Source: Sediminispirochaeta smaragdinae DSM 11293 (GTDB taxonomy: Bacteria; Spirochaetota; Spirochaetia; DSM-16054; Sediminispirochaetaceae). From it: a stretch of DNA of 64,000 nucleotides. Shown in pieces: positions 35,796-44,241 of the stretch. Position numbers and translations under genes: made by a program. Location of the stretch: contig NC_014364.1 of the NCBI RefSeq assembly GCF_000143985.1, positions 1,674,001 to 1,738,000 on the forward strand, read 5' to 3'. Every line of letters begins with the position of its first letter. The stretch's first letter is position 1. Under the pieces are notes generated by a model, which was not told the DNA's origin, made no database searches, and saw only the letters and a list, made by a program, of their open reading frames with translations.

Positions 35796-36123
35796 GAGCG
35801 ATAAGGCGAAGGGGCGTATTTCCGTTGTTCCTAATGCTGTGACTTTCCCCGTTGCCGGTCACCACCAAATCTCCGGCTGCTATCGCTATAGGTCCGGTCC
35901 CTTCGTCGACTTCTCCTGTTCCCTCAAGAATGTAATAGTATTCGGTCTCTCCCGTGTGGGTATGCTCTCCGATAGACGAGCCGGGAACGAGAGTCAGCTC
36001 ACTGAAAAGACGTCCTCCCGGTACCTGCTCCGGAGAGAGCAAATGACGTAAAGCGATATTACCTTCTCCGTCTCTCATATGCTCTTTCACTTCGTTGCGC
36101 ATCGACGTCTGTCTAATAATCAT
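35758..36123 (-). CDS. small cupin-domain protein
   Basis: 121 residues forming one cupin barrel: the first motif is seen as SIGEHTHTGETEYYYILEG and the second as VTGNGESHSIRNNG. Two His and one Glu are positioned to bind a metal. Substrate is unknown. The start overlaps the HPr stop (ATGA), so it is in one operon with HPr and convergent with the sugar kinase. Confidence 0.85.
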   Translation of the reverse strand: MIIRQTSMRNEVKEHMRDGEGNIALRHLLSPEQVPGGRLFSELTLVPGSSIGEHTHTGETEYYYILEGTGEVDEGTGPIAIAAGDLVVTGNGESHSIRNNGNTPLRLIALILFDRENLSSQ

Positions 36124-36401
36124 CCCGATTCCCTCCCAGGATAGTCGAAATTGTGTTGAAACAACTCTACCAGTTTCTCAGCCTTTTTATTTTCGTCGGG
36201 ACCTTCAATGTGGATTGTTATCTTGTCACCCTGGACAAGGCCGAGGGAAAGCAATGCCATGATGCTTGTCAATTCGACCTCGACATCCTCCTTTTTCAGG
36301 ATGACCTTCCCTTCGTACGGCGAGACCTCATTCATAATGACACCGGAAGGCCGAACATGAATTCCCGCCTTGTTTTGTATCACTGCAGAACGCTGAACCA
36401 T
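36120..36401 (-). CDS. ptsH: HPr-family phosphocarrier protein
   Basis: 93 residues, beginning MVQRSAVIQNKAGIHVRPSG. His15 is the PTS phosphorylation site and Ser46 (in LTSIMALLSLG) is the regulatory site phosphorylated by HPr kinase in other bacteria; both lie at the canonical numbers. No enzyme I or EII gene is adjacent, so it may serve regulation rather than transport. The start has no recognisable Shine-Dalgarno sequence (TTCCGTT precedes ATG). Confidence 0.9.
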   Translation of the reverse strand: MVQRSAVIQNKAGIHVRPSGVIMNEVSPYEGKVILKKEDVEVELTSIMALLSLGLVQGDKITIHIEGPDENKKAEKLVELFQHNFDYPGRESG

Positions 36402-36447
36402 AACGGAAAGTATATAAAACTCCCGAACATTTTACCAGAGCAAAGGG

Positions 36448-36534
36448 TAGTGTTCCGAATCCTGGTGTTTCTCAGCCCCAAGCATACGAGGGAAGATAGT
36501 CAATCGGTGGAAGCCACCAGGATTCCGGACACTA
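36448..36534. repeat. long imperfect inverted repeat upstream of the chemoreceptor
   Basis: A 20-base arm at 36448-36467 (TAGTGTTCCGAATCC...) and its reverse complement at 36515-36534 match at 18 of 20 positions, separated by 47 bases. A smaller hairpin, GGTGG-AAG-CCACC (36506-36518), overlaps the right arm and would compete with it. There is no T tract. It could be a 5' leader fold, or a relic of a small mobile repeat. The rest of the 168-base gap holds nothing else that I can identify. Confidence 0.55.
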
Positions 36535-36569
36535 TTTACTACAAAGAAAAAGTCAGATACTATTATTTC

Positions 36570-38360
36570 ATGAAAGTTCGTTCAAAATTGCTCTTACTGA
36601 ATGTTGTTTTTTTAGTCGGTTTTCTTTGTGCGGGATTTGTACTGACCCTTTCCATCCGGACGCTTATGTCCGAATACCATATCGGTCTTGAAGGAACCAG
36701 CCTCATAGGCGAACTCCATGAGTTAAGTAACCTTACGAAGGAAATCCTGCTTGCCGAGGACTTACACGATACGCTTCCTGAGGTTATCGCACAGGTCCGC
36801 CGTGTCGACGATAGAATCGAAACGTATCTTACCGAGAGTGTTAAGACGGCTCCCCGGGAAACCAAAGACGTTCTTGAGATATACGATGTTACAAAACGGC
36901 AGCTGGAATCGGTTTTGGCAAAGGTTGAGGAGATTGAAAAGCGTTACCCCGATTATCTGCCCGGGCTGGTTGAGGCTTACTCCTACTACCAGGTTTTTAC
37001 CATAGACCGGGCGGCAAAAGAGGTGTTGCAGCTTTCAACTTATTTAAGCGAAACCCTTACTGTACGCCTGAAAGCACTTGTTGACGAGGTATCACGACAG
37101 AACGCTCGGCTTGCTTCCTCGGCAATTCGCTTCTCGATCATTGTTTCTGCCATCATTCTTTTTATACTCACCTTTTTCTCGCTTCTAACGATCAGGGGTC
37201 TTGATAGAAGGATAGGGGAATTCCGGCGGCAACTTCTCCGTTTTGAGACGGGGGATATTTCTTCCGATGTGGTCCTGACGGGACGGGATGAGTTCTCGGC
37301 TATTGCCGAGGCGATGAATCAGTTTATTATCCTCTTAAGAGAATTATTGTATGATGTTCGTAAGATCATCTTTGCTCATCATGAAAGCCAAAAGGAAACA
37401 ATAGGCATCATTGAAACCTCTGATCGTGTACGCGAAGAGGCTATCGCTGGTGTCAAGACTGCGGAGGATGAGGCGGAACAGCTCCACACAATGGTATCCG
37501 CTGGGGAGTCGGAACTAAAAGAGCTTCGAAAAGGGTTTTCCGATCTCAGTATGAAGCTTTCAAGCCAGAACACTTCGATTAGTGAATCGAGTGCCGCAGT
37601 GGAGGAGATGAACGCCTCAATTGCAAGTGCCACCCGTATTGCACGAGAACGGCAGGAAGCTTCCGGCCGGCTTGCCGTAAGTACTCAGAAAGGGCATACG
37701 ATGCTTGAGGCGACAGGAAAAATGGTCTCCGATACGGTTTCTGATATGGAAAAAATCAAAGACATCGTTACTATTATTAACGACATAAGCGAAAAGACCA
37801 ACCTGCTTTCGATGAATGCCGCTATCCAGGCCTCTCATGCGGGAGAGGCGGGTAAGGGCTTTGCCGTTCTTGCCGGTGAGATTCGCAGGCTTGCCGATAG
37901 TACAGGTGAAAATGCCCGTATGATTCAGGAAGCCATTGAAACGGCTGCAAAGCGATCTGTGGAGATGAACCAGGGGGCAGTCAATACATTACAGCTCTTC
38001 CGGGAAATCCTTGCGGAAAGCGATAGGGCTCAGTCGTCGATGTCAGAGATCGTCGGAGCAATGGAAGAGATTCTTTCCGGAAGCGGAGAAATTACCAGGG
38101 CGATCCTCTCCATCCGTGATACATCTGTGGAAATGGATGAACGATCTGCTGAAATGGATAATGCGTCGTTGAAGGTAAGCAAGACCATCGGACGGGTGGG
38201 AGGGCATGCTTCCACCATGGAAAATGCGACCACAGACCTTGGCAAAGCGGTCCTTTCAATGGGAGAAAGGGTGACGCAGCTGGGAGAGGCCGGCCGCAAT
38301 ACTGCTGCCGTGATTGCCTCTCTTGCAGAAAAAATCGGCCGGTTTCGATTGGAAGATTAA
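36570..38360 (+). CDS. methyl-accepting chemotaxis protein
   Basis: 596 residues. First membrane helix at about residues 7-30, a periplasmic four-helix-like sensing region, second helix at about 182-205, HAMP, then the signalling domain with the hairpin tip EKTNLLSMNAAIQASHAGEAGKGFAVLAGE in family-typical form. Glu/Gln-rich methylation helices flank it. The ligand is unknown. ATG at 36570 is chosen because it opens the membrane helix; upstream codons do not look like coding sequence. The 3' end overlaps the opposite-strand polyprenyl synthase gene by four bases. Confidence 0.93.
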   Translation: MKVRSKLLLLNVVFLVGFLCAGFVLTLSIRTLMSEYHIGLEGTSLIGELHELSNLTKEILLAEDLHDTLPEVIAQVRRVDDRIETYLTESVKTAPRETKDVLEIYDVTKRQLESVLAKVEEIEKRYPDYLPGLVEAYSYYQVFTIDRAAKEVLQLSTYLSETLTVRLKALVDEVSRQNARLASSAIRFSIIVSAIILFILTFFSLLTIRGLDRRIGEFRRQLLRFETGDISSDVVLTGRDEFSAIAEAMNQFIILLRELLYDVRKIIFAHHESQKETIGIIETSDRVREEAIAGVKTAEDEAEQLHTMVSAGESELKELRKGFSDLSMKLSSQNTSISESSAAVEEMNASIASATRIARERQEASGRLAVSTQKGHTMLEATGKMVSDTVSDMEKIKDIVTIINDISEKTNLLSMNAAIQASHAGEAGKGFAVLAGEIRRLADSTGENARMIQEAIETAAKRSVEMNQGAVNTLQLFREILAESDRAQSSMSEIVGAMEEILSGSGEITRAILSIRDTSVEMDERSAEMDNASLKVSKTIGRVGGHASTMENATTDLGKAVLSMGERVTQLGEAGRNTAAVIASLAEKIGRFRLED

Positions 38361-39325
38361 TAGGATCGAGCCAGGACGGTTCGGGTCAGCGCAAGTAGTT
38401 GCTCTCTTGCCTGGTTCGCCGGAAGATGGTCAAGTGCCTCTATGGCCCTGTCGGTGTAGCATTGAGCCTCCTCCCGGGCGGTGGCGAGAGCCCCACTTCC
38501 TTCTACTATCGAAAGAAGCGCATCAACTACGCCGGGATCATTGGGCAGGCGTTGAATCAAAGCGGATATCTCTTCCGACTGCTTTGTTTCTCTGGCAATA
38601 ATCAACGGCAGGGTACATACCCCTTGGCGTAGATCACTGCCCGCAGGTTTTCCGAGTACCTCTTTGCTGCCTGTGTAATCAAGGATGTCGTCGATGATCT
38701 GAAATGCCATGCCTATGGCATACCCGGCCCGTCGTGCCCACATCACCTGAGTTTTATTCATTTTGCTTTGGCTCGCTCCTGCATGAAATGAAAGAAGGAA
38801 AAGCGCTGCTGTCTTTCCCGCAATTCTTCGAAGATATGTCCTGCGGGAAATGGCAAAATCGTACTCTTTCGTGGACTGATCAATTTCGCTTTGACAGATA
38901 AAACCAACAGCAGTGCTGAGGGACCTGCCGTTTTCAATTGTCGCATATTGGGCGGCAATCGAAAAACAGCGGCTGAAGAGGTAGTCCCCCATCAGGATAG
39001 CCTTTCGAATGCCTATCTTTGTATGAACGGCGGGAACTCCCCTACGGGTATCCGCATCGTCTATGACATCGTCATGAATAAGTGTTGCGATATGAAGCAT
39101 CTCAATGGCCGCGGCAATATCGTACGCCTTTTTTTTGGAGAACTTACCGCATCGCGCCGTGAGAAGGAGAAAGGATGGCCTGAGCATCTTACCCTGTGCA
39201 AGAATAAGCTCTTCAAGTCCCTCTCTGATTGTCGGGCTGCTGTTTCTAATATGAGTAAGTATAACCTCCCTGACCCGAAGGAGATCGGAGTCGAGGGAGG
39301 GAATACCAAGAACGGATTGCTTCAT
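38357..39325 (-). CDS. polyprenyl diphosphate synthase (DmkB/HepT/IspB-like)
   Basis: Trans-isoprenyl diphosphate synthase making the side chain of a quinone or a lipid carrier. 322 residues. The first aspartate-rich motif is HDDVIDDADTRRG and the second is QIIDDILDYTG. Chain length cannot be read from sequence. It begins at the base next to the NDH-2 stop, so both are one minus-strand unit; that pairing argues for (demethyl)menaquinone synthesis. Confidence 0.92.
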   Translation of the reverse strand: MKQSVLGIPSLDSDLLRVREVILTHIRNSSPTIREGLEELILAQGKMLRPSFLLLTARCGKFSKKKAYDIAAAIEMLHIATLIHDDVIDDADTRRGVPAVHTKIGIRKAILMGDYLFSRCFSIAAQYATIENGRSLSTAVGFICQSEIDQSTKEYDFAISRRTYLRRIAGKTAALFLLSFHAGASQSKMNKTQVMWARRAGYAIGMAFQIIDDILDYTGSKEVLGKPAGSDLRQGVCTLPLIIARETKQSEEISALIQRLPNDPGVVDALLSIVEGSGALATAREEAQCYTDRAIEALDHLPANQAREQLLALTRTVLARSY

Positions 39326-41410
39326 CTATTTGGGTTCACCGCTATAGAGGTAACTCTTTTTCGCTAATTTCGTTCCATTCCACCACTTTTTGATCCAAGG
39401 CATTACCCAATGGTCAAGACCCAGGCCGCGACCTGCTCCGCCCATCATAAGAATGGCCGCGAATACAAACCAGAGCTGATTCCAGCTGAACATTCCCGAC
39501 AAGGTGAAGATCAGGCACATACCGATCGACACAACTGCGGCAATCCAGGTAAAAAGACCACCCATGAGGGCAAGACCGATACCTATCTCTACAACAACAA
39601 CCATGACCTGGAACAACTGAAAGGGCAGGTGAACAAAGATGCCGTCCATGAAGGTTTGGCGAAACCATGTCACCAAGGGATTATCATAGGCAAGGATAGA
39701 GTTCGCCGTATCCCAGATGGTATGGAAGGCCTGCTCGGCATGGGCGACTGCAGTGGATGCGGCACCTGCAACGGCATCGGAAGCGGCGGATACCGCGTCT
39801 GAAGCTGCCTTGACCGTATTTGCGGCGGCGTCTGCCGCTGTACCGCTTGCGGCTGTGACGGCATCTGAGGCTGCGTGGGCCACGGTGGCGGCTGCATCTG
39901 TTGCTGCACCGCTTGCGGCTGTGACCGCCTCGGTGGCAGTCTGAGCAGCCTGCGTTCCTGCCTCTGCAGCGGAAGCGGCACTGGTTGCGTCTGTAACTGC
40001 CTGTACACCCGCCTGCACAACTCCTTGGCTAAACATCCATCCCGATTTCGAACCGGCCGAGAAATGAAACCATCCTTCACCAATCTTATTGATCCCTTCG
40101 AAGACCCACATCAGGCCGAGCCAGAGACGCAAGAGGACTGCCCAGTAATTGGGAATCTTCGCTGAAATGAGATTGCGAACCAGGGAACGTCCCTCTTTGA
40201 TGTCGAGGATTTCGTGTCGCAGGTAGCCCCATACGGCATTGAAGCCTGCAAGACCAAAAAGATAATGAACGTTGATGAGGTGCTTCAAAGCTGTTGCGAA
40301 AAAGCCCGACATCGATATGCCCATATTGTGGCTTACGGCATATTTCCCACCAAGGGAGACCATGAAACCGTGGTAGTTCGACTTGAACGCCTTCATGGGA
40401 CTTCCTTCGATGGAAGCGGCGACATTATGAGCGACTACCTCTGCGGTTTGCAGTGCCGTCTCTACAATCTGGGGAAGTGGCTTTTCGTTTTCAAGGAACC
40501 ACACCATATCCCCGGTAAGAAAGACGTTTTCTTTACCCGGACTTCTCAGATATTCGTCTGCCTTTTGCCTGCTGCAGTGTCCCTGCTCGAGATCCAACTC
40601 CCCGCCAAAGGCTGTTCCGAAAACACCGCAGGTCCAGATAAAGGTTTTTGCATCATGGGAATCGCAGTTGTTTGTTGAAAAGCCGTCGGGAGTCACTTCG
40701 GTAATTCTGCTTTCGAGGCAGATTTCCACGCCGTGCTTTTCCAGATACTTCATCGTTTTCTGCTGAAGTTTTTCCGGCAGGATCGGAAGTATTTCACCGA
40801 GGGCCTCGACGACCATGATCCTTACTTCCGATTCATCGATGCCGTACTCTCTGCAGAGCGTGCTTCGCCGTTCAACCAACTCTCCCGCCAGTTCGATACC
40901 GGTAAAACCGGCACCAGCGACGGCAAAGGTCAGAAGCTTTTTTCGCTCTTCCGGGTCCAATGTCTGACTCGCTTCCAAAAACATCCGCTCGGTATGCTCA
41001 CGGATCTTCATCGCATCTTCAAAGGACCAGAGCGTGAAAGCGTGCTCTTGTGCTCCCGGGACACCGAAAAAACATGGTTCGGCACCGGTCCCCAGAACCA
41101 GGTAGTCATACTCATAAGAGTCGCTTTTACCCGTTAATTTCTTTCCTGTGAAGTCGATAGCGGTGATTTCATCGAGAACGACATGTACTCGTTTTCCGGA
41201 AAAAATACGAGCAAAGGAGACCCTGACCGAATCAGGTTCAACCCTTGCTCCTGCGACTTCATGGAGTTCCGTCATCAGGGTATGATAGGGGTTTCGGTCT
41301 ATAAGGGTAATTTCTATCTCAGGTCGTTTCTTGAACTGTTTATGTAATTTCTTTGCAGTTTCAACACCCCCATATCCACCGCCGAGAATCACAATATTGG
41401 TTTTACCCAT
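39326..41410 (-). CDS. type II NADH dehydrogenase fused to a DoxX membrane domain
   Basis: 694 residues. Residues 1-400 are an NDH-2 flavoprotein: FAD-binding VILGGGYGGVETAKK at the N terminus and the NAD(P)H-binding FAVAGAGFTGIELAGE near residue 165. From about 420 a DoxX-like membrane domain starts (LLRLWLGLMWVFEGINKIG), is interrupted by an Ala/Thr/Asp/Val-rich segment at about 470-565, and resumes with three helices from about 590. The insert shows an 18-base DNA repeat 66 bases apart (39842 and 39908), a 22-residue period. The start has GGAGGAAGGA upstream. Electrons would pass from NADH to a quinone at the membrane. Confidence 0.9.
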   Translation of the reverse strand: MGKTNIVILGGGYGGVETAKKLHKQFKKRPEIEITLIDRNPYHTLMTELHEVAGARVEPDSVRVSFARIFSGKRVHVVLDEITAIDFTGKKLTGKSDSYEYDYLVLGTGAEPCFFGVPGAQEHAFTLWSFEDAMKIREHTERMFLEASQTLDPEERKKLLTFAVAGAGFTGIELAGELVERRSTLCREYGIDESEVRIMVVEALGEILPILPEKLQQKTMKYLEKHGVEICLESRITEVTPDGFSTNNCDSHDAKTFIWTCGVFGTAFGGELDLEQGHCSRQKADEYLRSPGKENVFLTGDMVWFLENEKPLPQIVETALQTAEVVAHNVAASIEGSPMKAFKSNYHGFMVSLGGKYAVSHNMGISMSGFFATALKHLINVHYLFGLAGFNAVWGYLRHEILDIKEGRSLVRNLISAKIPNYWAVLLRLWLGLMWVFEGINKIGEGWFHFSAGSKSGWMFSQGVVQAGVQAVTDATSAASAAEAGTQAAQTATEAVTAASGAATDAAATVAHAASDAVTAASGTAADAAANTVKAASDAVSAASDAVAGAASTAVAHAEQAFHTIWDTANSILAYDNPLVTWFRQTFMDGIFVHLPFQLFQVMVVVVEIGIGLALMGGLFTWIAAVVSIGMCLIFTLSGMFSWNQLWFVFAAILMMGGAGRGLGLDHWVMPWIKKWWNGTKLAKKSYLYSGEPK

Positions 41411-41433
41411 TCCTTCCTCCAGATTCTGTTATG

Positions 41434-41455
41434 ATTTTCACGTTATTGTGAATAT
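41434..41455. promoter_or_regulatory. inverted repeat TTCAC-N6-GTGAA
   Basis: Arms ATTTTCAC (41434-41441) and GTGAATAT (41448-41455) pair at seven of eight positions. It lies just upstream of the NDH-2 ribosome binding site and downstream of the predicted start of that transcript. It may be an operator; the regulator is unknown. Confidence 0.35.
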
Positions 41456-41464
41456 TTTCTAAAT

Positions 41465-41481
41465 ATGATCGATTCGATCAT
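41465..41481. promoter_or_regulatory. perfect 17-bp palindrome, candidate operator
   Basis: ATGATCGA (41465-41472), one central base, and TCGATCAT (41474-41481). It falls immediately downstream of the predicted minus-strand transcription start (about 41484), a typical repressor position. Confidence 0.45.
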
Positions 41482-41490
41482 GCTTTAGTG

Positions 41491-41519
41491 ATGATAGAAG
41501 ATAATTATCTTTTCTGCAA
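41491..41519 (-). promoter_or_regulatory. predicted promoter of the NDH-2/polyprenyl synthase operon
   Basis: Read on the minus strand: -35 TTGCAG (41519-41514), 17-base spacer, -10 TATCAT (41496-41491). The spacer contains the palindrome AAGATAATTATCTT (41498-41511), which resembles part of a Fur-type box; binding there would occlude the promoter. Confidence 0.5.
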
Positions 41520-41525
41520 CTACAT

Positions 41526-41540
41526 GCTTCTGTCAGAAGC
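41526..41540. promoter_or_regulatory. perfect 15-bp inverted repeat before apbE
   Basis: GCTTCTG (41526-41532), central T, CAGAAGC (41534-41540), 37 bases upstream of the ApbE start. Too short a loop to be a terminator hairpin, so an operator is likelier. Confidence 0.35.
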
Positions 41541-41577
41541 TTGACTTTTCAAGAGAAATAAGAGAAATTTTCGCACC

Positions 41578-42618
41578 ATGAAATATCGTCTATATGCTTT
41601 TTTTTTCTTACTATGTATTCTATCGTCATGCGGGACGGAGAAATCGCAAGATCCTATAGCGGAGACACGTTTTGCTTTGGGGACAACCTGCACCATCACG
41701 GTCTTTCGAAAGGCGGATGCCCATCATATACAAGAGGCCTTTGATGCCGTTCACCGTGTGGAGTCTCTCATGAGTGTGAATTTGGATGATTCGGAGATCT
41801 CGGTTCTCAATGACCATGCAGGCAGGGATCCTTTGCAGTTTTCCGATGATACCTTTTTTCTTCTTTCCAAGGCAAAGGAGTATGCCCAGCTTTCGGGTGG
41901 CGCCTTTGATCCCACCGTCGGACCTCTTGTCTCTCTTTGGGGAATAGGAAGTGATGAAGCAAGGCTTCCTGAGCGATCCGAGATCTTGGATGCACTTGCG
42001 TTGATTGATTATCACAATCTGGTTCTCAATAGTGAACATCGTACAGCCGAACTCCTGAAAAAAGGGATGGCCGTCGATCTTGGGGCAATCGCCAAGGGCT
42101 ATGCCGCGGATGCCGCCGCACAGGTCCTGAAAGATGATGAGGTGCCGTATGCTATTATCAACTTCGGCGGGAATGTTTTTGCGATGGGGCAGCGCTACGG
42201 AGATGGGCCCTGGAAGATTGGAATTCAGGATCCCGACGCCGAGCGGGGAAACTATATTGCCATTGCCCGAGTCGAGGATAGTGCCGTTGTCACCAGTGGG
42301 AAATATGAACGTTTTTTCATCCAGGACGGCGTGCGTTATCACCATATCCTCAGTACCGTCGACGGCTATCCGATAGAAAACGGGATAGCCTCGGTGACTG
42401 TTGTCGCCAGGGACTCGACCCTGGCGGACGCCTTCTCCACCATGTTGTTTGCCTTAGGCCCGGAGAAAGGTCTGCGGCTGGCAAGAGAGACCCCCTTTCT
42501 CCAGGCCGTGTTTGTTATGGAAGATAAATCGGTGCTGACATCCTCCGACCCCGACGGGTGGCTTACGATAGAGGACAGCCGGTACCATTTTGTGCAGGAT
42601 AGCGAGGTGACGGAATGA
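41578..42618 (+). CDS. apbE: ApbE-family FAD:protein FMN transferase, lipoprotein
   Basis: Attaches FMN covalently to Thr/Ser of exported flavoproteins. 346 residues. N-terminal lipoprotein signal with lipobox LSSC (Cys19), so it should be anchored outside the cytoplasmic membrane. The ApbE core is seen in GTTCTITVFRKADAHHIQ, GGAFDPTVGPLV and VDLGAIAKGYAADAAAQVLK. The ribosome binding site is weak. It is divergent from NDH-2 and its stop overlaps the next gene. Confidence 0.93.
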   Translation: MKYRLYAFFFLLCILSSCGTEKSQDPIAETRFALGTTCTITVFRKADAHHIQEAFDAVHRVESLMSVNLDDSEISVLNDHAGRDPLQFSDDTFFLLSKAKEYAQLSGGAFDPTVGPLVSLWGIGSDEARLPERSEILDALALIDYHNLVLNSEHRTAELLKKGMAVDLGAIAKGYAADAAAQVLKDDEVPYAIINFGGNVFAMGQRYGDGPWKIGIQDPDAERGNYIAIARVEDSAVVTSGKYERFFIQDGVRYHHILSTVDGYPIENGIASVTVVARDSTLADAFSTMLFALGPEKGLRLARETPFLQAVFVMEDKSVLTSSDPDGWLTIEDSRYHFVQDSEVTE

Positions 42619-42893
42619 GTAAATTTGACGATGTCCGGCTTATTTCCGGAGTGTGGTACCGACTTGACCTTTCCATGGGCAAGAGTTTTACCGCCTGCTG
42701 TATCATGGAAGAATCCGACGAGGGAGTGATTACCTTTTTCGAGTTCCCCGACGAGAGTAGAAAAGCTGCCGCAGATATTCTGCCCCATCTTGTCGATCTT
42801 GTGCCCATAGAACCTCCCGCAGAGATCAGCTACCGTATCGAGGATTTCCTCGATGACGAGGATGAAGTGGACGGGGAATCTGATGAGTGGTGA
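42615..42893 (+). CDS. uncharacterised 92-residue acidic protein
   Basis: Soluble, acidic, with no membrane helix or signal. The start overlaps the apbE stop (ATGA) and its end overlaps the next gene by 11 bases, so it is co-translated with both. It contains VWYRLDLSMGKSFTACCIME and an Asp/Glu-rich tail (FLDDEDEVDGESDEW). I recognise no domain; it is not the NusG-II-like protein often found beside ApbE in electron-transfer loci. Confidence 0.7.
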   Translation: MSKFDDVRLISGVWYRLDLSMGKSFTACCIMEESDEGVITFFEFPDESRKAAADILPHLVDLVPIEPPAEISYRIEDFLDDEDEVDGESDEW

Positions 42894-43395
42894 TCGTCAC
42901 AAGCCTGTTGCGGTTTTGGGCGGGCTGGCGCTTTTCCTTTCGGTCTTGGAGTTTATGATACCAAAGCCCGTGCCCTTTATGCGCTTGGGCATTGCGAATA
43001 TTCCGATTCTTATTGCACTTGCCCTTTTCGATGACCGTGAAGTGTGGCTTTTGGCTTTTCTAAAGATTGCAGGACAAGGGATTGTAAATGGGACACTCTT
43101 TTCATATATCATCCTTTTTTCCGCTACGGGAACCCTTGTCAGTGTGGCTGTTATGGTCCTTCTTCGGCGTTTTGCAAGGAAAGGCATCAGTCTCGTCGGT
43201 ATGAGCGTGGCGGGAGCCTTTGTCGGAAATTTGTCGCAAATAGTGCTTGCCAACCGCTTTATTTTCGGCAATGCGGCCCTTCTTATCGCTCCCCCCTTTC
43301 TGATCATCGGTTTGATCAGCGGGGCCATTATGGGATTTTTCGGTGATCGTTTTATTGCCGGAAGCCTTTGGGCTCGTAACTTCACGGAGGCCTAA
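42883..43395 (+). CDS. Gx transporter / heptaprenyl diphosphate synthase component I family membrane protein
   Basis: 170 residues with about five membrane helices. The N-terminal VLGGLALFLSVLEFMIP and FMRLGIANIPILIALALF match the Hpre_diP_synt_I family, related to ECF-transporter substrate-binding components. In the flavin-based electron transfer loci of Firmicutes a member of this family is called EetB. The ATG at 42883 gives an 11-base overlap with the previous gene; an earlier in-frame ATG lies at 42853. Function is not known from sequence. Confidence 0.8.
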   Translation: MSGDRHKPVAVLGGLALFLSVLEFMIPKPVPFMRLGIANIPILIALALFDDREVWLLAFLKIAGQGIVNGTLFSYIILFSATGTLVSVAVMVLLRRFARKGISLVGMSVAGAFVGNLSQIVLANRFIFGNAALLIAPPFLIIGLISGAIMGFFGDRFIAGSLWARNFTEA

Positions 43396-43398
43396 ACA

Positions 43399-44016
43399 TT
43401 GAATAAATTTCGTTTTATGGCGGGAGTCCTTTTAATTCCCGCCTTCGTATTTCAGCAGTCGCTTCTTTTCAGGATCATTCAAGTCGTCCTGCTTATCGTC
43501 TACTCCTTGCTTCTGGGGCGCCGGTTTCGATTCCTTCCCAATATTGCCCTCTTGCTGGGAGTCACTGTAGCGAATCTCCTTACTCCGGTAGGGGAGGTGC
43601 TCTTTCGTATCGGAACCTTCCCGGTCACCTCCGTCGCTCTGGTACAGGGCTTGATGAGGGCCCTACTTTTTATCGGTCTTGTCTATCTCTCCCGTTCTTC
43701 GATAAGCGCATCCCTCGCCCTTCCGGGCAAGGGGGGCGCTCTTGTCGCCAGGACCCTGTATTATTTTGAGAAAATTATAAACTTCGATCCTCCGGCAAAA
43801 GAGAAGGGCTTCTGGTATGCCCTCACTCACCTTGGGAAGCGGCTGGATCAGATCCTTCTTTTTTGCTTTCAAGAGGCTGACGAGTCACCGGCTGACACCC
43901 TTGCCGGGAAGAGGGGAGAGGCTGTGGTGCCTCTGATCGGGATTCGTATCTATATTGTGGTCCTGATTCTCCTCTTCTGGACGCTTTTTGTGATTTCACA
44001 AGTTATAAAGGCTTGA
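43399..44016 (+). CDS. uncharacterised membrane protein, possibly EcfT-like
   Basis: 205 residues with three to four hydrophobic N-terminal segments, an amphipathic middle (VARTLYYFEKIINF) and one C-terminal membrane helix. It starts at TTG 43399 with CGGAGG at 43385-43390, three bases after the previous stop. The layout vaguely resembles the coupling (T) component of ECF transporters, which would suit the S-like neighbour, but no diagnostic motif is clear. Its stop codon lies within the -35 element of the ilv promoter. Confidence 0.65.
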   Translation: MNKFRFMAGVLLIPAFVFQQSLLFRIIQVVLLIVYSLLLGRRFRFLPNIALLLGVTVANLLTPVGEVLFRIGTFPVTSVALVQGLMRALLFIGLVYLSRSSISASLALPGKGGALVARTLYYFEKIINFDPPAKEKGFWYALTHLGKRLDQILLFCFQEADESPADTLAGKRGEAVVPLIGIRIYIVVLILLFWTLFVISQVIKA

Positions 44017-44076: not shown

Positions 44077-44241
44077 ATGTTTACGATTATTGCTCGGTCC
44101 ATAAACCTTATTGTCCCGGTTATGAGCATTATTATTATCGTAAACATCCTCCTCTCCAGCCTACCAATTTCGATTATTATCCTATCCATTATTGGAAAGT
44201 TTCGCCGTTCGAGTATGGCGGCAGGTAATCGAGCCTGTTAG
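44077..44241 (+). CDS. putative Ile/Leu/Val-rich leader peptide of the ilv operon
   Basis: 54-codon reading frame with AAGGAG at 44063-44068, eight bases before the ATG. Residues 4-39 contain 15 Ile, 5 Leu and 3 Val, including runs of four and three Ile codons (SIIIIVNILL, ISIIIL). This is the expected composition of a leader peptide sensing the three products of the downstream operon. It is followed by hairpins 44226-44250 and 44295-44342. A small membrane protein is the alternative reading, since the peptide is hydrophobic. Confidence 0.6.
   Translation: MFTIIARSINLIVPVMSIIIIVNILLSSLPISIIILSIIGKFRRSSMAAGNRAC

Follow-up and report, generated by a model that had tools for sequence, protein, structure and literature searches.

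A locus in the spirochaete Sediminispirochaeta smaragdinae probably related to the Listeria-type locus for flavin-based electron transfer

Loci for flavin-based extracellular electron transfer (EET) have been described in Gram-positive bacteria, where the lipoprotein PplA faces outward. Here we analyse a related six-gene locus in the free-living spirochaete Sediminispirochaeta smaragdinae DSM 11293. It lies in a stretch of 64,000 nucleotides (the window; bases 1,674,001–1,738,000 of the one-contig, closed 4,653,970-bp genome), and coordinates are those of the window unless stated otherwise. The minus strand carries ndh2 (39326–41410), encoding a 694-residue type II NADH dehydrogenase (NDH-2; Pyr_redox_2 E=8e-37) with an Ala-rich linker and a hydrophobic C-terminal membrane domain. 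It is followed with zero gap by hepT (38357–39325, minus strand), which encodes a DmkB-like polyprenyl diphosphate synthase of 322 residues (PF00348 E=5e-63). Beyond a divergent intergenic region of 167 bp (41411–41577), the plus strand encodes an FmnB-like flavin adenine dinucleotide (FAD):protein flavin mononucleotide (FMN) transferase of 346 residues with a lipoprotein signal and lipobox LSSC (apbE, 41578–42618; PF02424 E=1e-91). This is followed on the same strand by p92 (42615–42893), a Pfam orphan recognised by same-slot homologues and encoding a small soluble protein, and by eetB of the Gx family (42853–43395; PF07456 E=4.5e-36), encoding an S-type membrane protein of the energy-coupling factor (ECF) transporters. 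The eetB start is either the ATG at 42853 or, by conservation, position 42883. The last plus-strand gene (43399–44016), likewise a Pfam orphan, encodes a 205-residue membrane protein in the position of FmnA, here termed ECF-T-like. An earlier note on this DNA had reported an NDH-2 with membrane domain, a polyprenyl synthase, an ApbE lipoprotein and a Gx protein together; all four reading frames are indeed open and belong to these families.

The four plus-strand genes overlap or abut their neighbours, which suggests a single transcript. All six genes are under purifying selection, with ratios of nonsynonymous to synonymous substitution (dN/dS) of 0.06–0.11 against a same-genus genome in which their order is identical. 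The 41411–41577 region differs from that genome by a single substitution and contains two palindromes, ATGATCGATTCGATCAT (41465–41481) and AAGATAATTATCTT (41498–41511), each present once in the 317 kb of genome examined. These are candidates for a shared operator, with putative promoters for the apbE and ndh2 units. No FMN riboswitch or other RNA was found near apbE.

NDH-2 entries of the PDB match residues 1–393 of the window Ndh2 at 1.7e-74; sulfide:quinone reductases reach only 1.7e-10, and this assignment was rejected. Pairwise alignment to the Listeria Ndh2 extends over residues 1–679, membrane domain included, with 42% identity, and HepT has 41% identity to the polyprenyl synthetase encoded in the EET locus of Listeria. 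The Listeria record used is titled a plasmid but contains ribosomal-protein genes and is thus probably chromosomal; its annotation lists fmnA, an FMN transferase, pplA, an FAD-dependent oxidoreductase, eetA, eetB and a polyprenyl synthetase. The best full-length Ndh2 matches outside Spirochaetota, obtained from a plasmid collection, belong to Acetoanaerobium, Enterococcus and Listeria, and all have the membrane domain. In a maximum-likelihood tree built on the NADH domain, a branch with 100/100 support separates these three, the window protein and the other membrane-domain proteins from ten ordinary NDH-2s found in the phylum itself. The tree does not fix the branching order around the window Ndh2 inside the EET side. 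Judged by sequence, the window NDH-2 is of the EET type, and HepT would make the quinone side chain. The Ala-rich, low-complexity linker (residues about 465–560) lies between membrane segments and varies in length among spirochaetes.

A family search of the genome found no ApbE other than that of the window (genome-wide absences here and below refer to family searches at set thresholds). The window ApbE is 35% identical to Listeria FmnB, which is also its top solved relative (PDB 7esa/7f2u, 231 bits). Very divergent ApbE-like genes occupy the same operon slot in two relatives (locus L149, 6123–7160; locus L150, 2725–3768). The L149 protein has 22% identity and has lost the GGN and HHI-type motifs, and both proteins may be inactive.

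The eetB gene is also the only member of its family found in the genome, with its product showing 28% identity (shuffle z 24) to the EetB of Listeria. In Listeria, EetB acts as the FAD-binding subunit of ECF-S type and FmnA as its ECF-T; FAD export for flavinylation requires both, and PplA flavinylation requires EetB unless FAD is supplied (PMC9973259). By these roles, the plus-strand operon reads as a module for FAD export and flavinylation, with EetB a candidate ECF-S-type FAD exporter whose outward direction of transport we infer. Since PF07456 bears the Pfam title heptaprenyl diphosphate synthase component I, hepT is nearby and ECF transporters usually import, EetB might instead be a vitamin importer or a component of the synthase. 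However, hepT is on the opposite strand, eetB lies inside the apbE operon in four further genomes, and the FAD binding and flavinylation requirement cited above concern a protein of the same family, making this alternative highly improbable. A generic vitamin importer was ruled out by the published EetB work and the operon context. That the Gx protein groups with vitamin (ECF-S) transporters, which the earlier note regarded as a potential refutation of an EET locus, does not count as one, since the FAD exporter EetB of Listeria is of that ECF-S type as well (PMC9973259).

The gene at 43399–44016 had been regarded as being of unknown kind. A model of its product (built from 21 sequences, mean pLDDT, the predicted local distance difference test, 75) was compared with the PDB using Foldseek, and the nine best matches (ranks 1–9) are all ECF-T/CbiQ subunits, with probabilities of 1.00 to 0.38 and E values of 1.9e-3 to 1.5. 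Profile comparison to Listeria FmnA by hhalign gives a probability of 70% for the first half of the protein only; pairwise similarity is none, and the protein is shorter than FmnA. The match to the genome's own ECF-T profile has a probability of only 24%, and Pfam CbiQ matches 3 of the 21 family members with E no better than 0.16; hence, fold and position are the basis for the assignment to ECF-T. Among 198 genomes sampled from the phylum, 31 contain the family; in the loci examined across Spirochaetia, its members either follow EetB directly or form one protein of ~340–430 residues with it. Such fusions occur in Treponema-type genomes at L083 7961–9085, L075 7616–8704 and L078 7450–8730. The protein is best called an ECF-T-like partner of EetB in the position of FmnA.

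The Ala-Arg-Gly ATPase-coupling motif is absent from the 205-residue protein and its family; it is present in Listeria FmnA and, as an exact pattern, in four of the six other ECF-Ts that the genome encodes. The genome encodes six other ECF transporters with ATPase genes, such that shared ATPases are available. A broader proposal, offered tentatively and with more doubt than conviction, is that spirochaetes export FAD via EetB acting with a shortened ECF-T-like protein, separate or fused, that is devoid of the coupling motif, with ECF ATPases absent or coupled differently. This would supply periplasmic ApbE/Ftp class-wide, Treponema included, with p92 a cytosolic accessory in one lineage. A 2015 study of Ftp, the Treponema pallidum ApbE, stated that the periplasmic flavin source was not known (PMC4767422). 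For the origin of the FAD used by periplasmic ApbE/Ftp, the pairs and fusions of EetB and ECF-T seen in Spirochaetia provide a testable answer.

Homologues of p92 occupy the same slot in four related genomes (38–97% identity), and dN/dS against the same-genus genome is 0.06. The protein has no transmembrane segment and is predicted to form a small beta-barrel (model pLDDT 76), for which no confident match among known structures was found. The earlier note had suggested that p92 and the 43399–44016 gene take the place of PplA and EetA. This can be set aside: the latter gene is ECF-T-like, and p92 was rejected as an EetA substitute as it lacks a transmembrane segment and any similarity to Listeria EetA. 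Our guess is that p92 is an accessory of the exporter. Weak p92 matches in other spirochaete classes lie within proteins of ~300 residues that appear alpha/beta hydrolase-like by eye, and were taken as chance.

To place the locus in context, the 80 best Ndh2 loci were collected from one-genome-per-species data (79 titled spirochaetes and one, L229, a Clostridia metagenome-assembled genome, MAG); hepT is beside ndh2 in 77. Neighbourhoods were counted at a distance of 4.5 kb in the 49 loci with enough flank, which are not phylogenetically independent. Within this distance of ndh2, hepT was found in 49/49 loci and apbE in 8/49, compared with an expectation of roughly 0.1–0.2 loci for one apbE per ~3-Mb genome. 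Clustering of ndh2, apbE and hepT exceeds chance, and apbE is directly divergent from ndh2, the arrangement seen in the window, in 7/49 loci. In five spirochaete loci, mostly from Sphaerochaetaceae or unclassified Spirochaetia MAGs (L203, L219, L223, L225 and L227), PplA, EetA, EetB, ApbE and HepT are all encoded together with Ndh2. L225 furthermore encodes a MenA-type prenyltransferase upstream of its pplA gene, and PplA is the sole NCBIfam match of its PplA-like protein. PplA, MenA, HepT and Ndh2 are encoded side by side in L139 and L140, while ndh2, hepT, apbE, ubiD and ubiA follow in a row in L133 (3300–10080) and L218, linking NDH-2, flavinylation and quinone assembly. The existence of complete or near-complete spirochaete loci indicates that the Listeria comparison is well founded, though the window version is incomplete, and that the system is not confined to Gram-positive bacteria. 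In two MAGs (L178, L180), an rnf operon was seen directly downstream of ndh2-hepT.

Three related genomes have apbE-p92-eetB(-ecfT) operons with no adjacent ndh2-hepT, so adjacency is not obligatory and the two halves can live apart. Together with the Treponema-like genomes that have EetB–ECF-T pairs or fusions and lack a membrane-domain Ndh2, and with the presence of both rnf and nqr in this genome, this would fit a plus-strand operon that serves flavinylation in general through FAD export and ApbE, with Rnf, Nqr and reductases as its targets. The ndh2-hepT pair would then be an independent respiratory entry, neighbouring by chance, with no EET as such. We consider this unlikely given that several spirochaetes show the divergent layout of apbE and ndh2-hepT and have pplA and eetA along with it, and the same genes are clustered in Listeria and Enterococcus.

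In contrast to the single ApbE, FMN_bind gave 15 matches in 12 proteins across the genome. Eight of these combine FMN_bind with FAD_binding_2 in fumarate-reductase-like proteins with lipoprotein-like signals, and seven of the eight have the [ST]GA[ST] motif. The others are NqrC, RnfG, a 137-residue lipoprotein and a doubtful protein of 191 residues with no clear motif. The rnf (about 2.07 Mb) and nqr (about 0.62 Mb) genes form separate clusters away from apbE, and at least nine FMN_bind proteins exist besides RnfG and NqrC, hence the apbE cluster does not classify as Rnf/Nqr-dedicated. The 137-residue, one-domain lipoprotein (genome positions 1,206,965–1,207,378; motif DTVTGAT) is 35% identical to domain 1 of Listeria PplA. 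Its sole NCBIfam match is the PplA model (E=3.7e-20), under a curated cut-off that was set for longer proteins. Motif-bearing FMN-binding lipoproteins, which the earlier note had proposed searching for, are thus present (the PplA-like protein and seven of the eight reductase-like proteins), and its concern that Rnf or Nqr could be the sole ApbE targets is countered by these further candidate targets.

Taken together, we consider it probable that this spirochaete locus is related, in rearranged form, to the flavin-based electron-transfer locus of the Listeria type. The earlier suggestion of a spirochaete version is supported by the Listeria comparisons, the Ndh2 tree and the near-complete loci of other spirochaetes, all of which are sequence-level evidence. 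We propose that electrons from cytosolic NADH would enter Ndh2, anchored at the inner membrane face, and pass to a prenylated quinone with a side chain derived from HepT. The quinol may then reduce FMN covalently bound to lipoproteins outside the cytoplasmic membrane. FAD would be exported by the EetB/ECF-T-like pair, and its FMN part transferred by ApbE onto [ST]GA[ST] motifs, with the 137-residue PplA-like lipoprotein, the eight fumarate-reductase-like FMN lipoproteins, RnfG and NqrC as probable recipients.

Several observations weigh against this interpretation. In addition to the missing coupling motif and the operons that stand apart from ndh2-hepT, no two-domain PplA was found at the locus, and the PplA-like lipoprotein located elsewhere has one domain. 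EetA is represented by a single NusG_II gene at 298 kb, far from the window. PplA and EetA are therefore indeed absent from the locus, as previously noted, but elsewhere the genome does encode EetA and a PplA-like lipoprotein of one domain. No MenA-type DmkA was found at the locus, the lone UbiA-family protein of the genome being MqnP-like. No match above cut-off was obtained in the genome for MqnC of futalosine menaquinone synthesis. The futalosine route via MqnC was rejected accordingly, with PF02621 giving weak matches only. The MqnP-like gene is at 4.39 Mb within a UbiX-UbiA-UbiD cluster. The eetA gene was seen to adjoin ResB- and CcsA-type cytochrome c maturation genes (L015 7421–9247) rather than eetB.

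Homology of Ndh2, ApbE, EetB, HepT and the PplA-like lipoprotein with the Listeria system could be read as pointing to full EET, in which insoluble acceptors outside the cell (ferric oxides or electrodes, for example) are reduced. This appears rather improbable, as the envelope is diderm, the eight reductase-like targets suggest soluble acceptors, and the literature searched yielded no EET phenotype. The proposed relative of the Listeria-type locus could pass electrons beyond the outer membrane but need not do so. How many of the targets are reductase-like, and a diderm envelope that would place the PplA-like lipoprotein in the periplasm, favour the reduction of small molecules (e.g. fumarate) in that compartment over that of minerals. 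There is a parallel in Listeria, where FmnB attaches flavin to an extracytosolic fumarate reductase as well (PMC9973259). The near-complete copies in outer-membrane spirochaetes make the basic role, periplasmic flavin reductases versus minerals, testable.

Two features flank the locus. Downstream of hepT, a plus-strand chemoreceptor reading frame (36153–38360), whose stop codon overlaps that of hepT, also overlaps an HPr-like gene on the opposite strand (36120–36401, minus); its start at 36153 is therefore probably over-called. On the other side, a plus-strand reading frame of 54 codons (44077–44241), 43% Ile/Leu/Val and conserved in the same-genus genome, precedes ilvB (44341) and resembles a leader peptide for attenuation of the ilv-leu operon.

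No description of a spirochaete EET locus turned up in the literature searched, although the supplementary tables of PMC8238504 and PMC9973259 may list some. An operational EET definition comprises an NADH dehydrogenase with a transmembrane helix within an apbE/FMN_bind cluster with signal peptide or lipidation site (PMC8238504). The window locus corresponds to this definition in having ndh2 beside a lipoprotein apbE, with families assigned by Pfam rather than KEGG K03885.

The window ApbE resembles Ftp (TP0796) in being a lipoprotein ApbE of a spirochaete, and scores about 220 bits to PDB entries of the 4ifu group, which we take to be Ftp. It scores slightly nearer Listeria FmnB than Ftp, and it sits in an ndh2/eetB locus. 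Ftp is associated with periplasmic flavin processing (PMC4767422).

With the Listeria monocytogenes locus (fmnA, dmkA, fmnB, pplA, ndh2, eetA, eetB, dmkB), the window shares the membrane-domain ndh2, the dmkB-type polyprenyl synthase, the exported ApbE, EetB and an adjoining ECF-T-like protein. It differs in having pplA and eetA elsewhere, no MenA-type dmkA, an added p92, an ECF-T-like protein that is shortened and devoid of the coupling motif relative to FmnA, and a diderm host. Given that three genes of the Listeria locus (EetA, two-domain PplA, DmkA) are missing at the site, the window locus is a variant rather than a full Listeria-type locus. An EET-like locus of Enterococcus gilvus (L233) encodes an NDH-2 with membrane domain (43% identical), NusG-II, Gx, HepT, ApbE, PplA and MenA; it differs from the window in its MenA and two-domain PplA and in its Gram-positive host. 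The five spirochaete loci L203, L219, L223, L225 and L227 share with the window an apbE divergent from ndh2-hepT and an EetB followed by the ECF-T-like protein. They differ in having eetA and a three-domain PplA on site, with eetA-eetB-ecfT convergent with apbE, whereas in the window p92 is present and a single operon runs in one direction.

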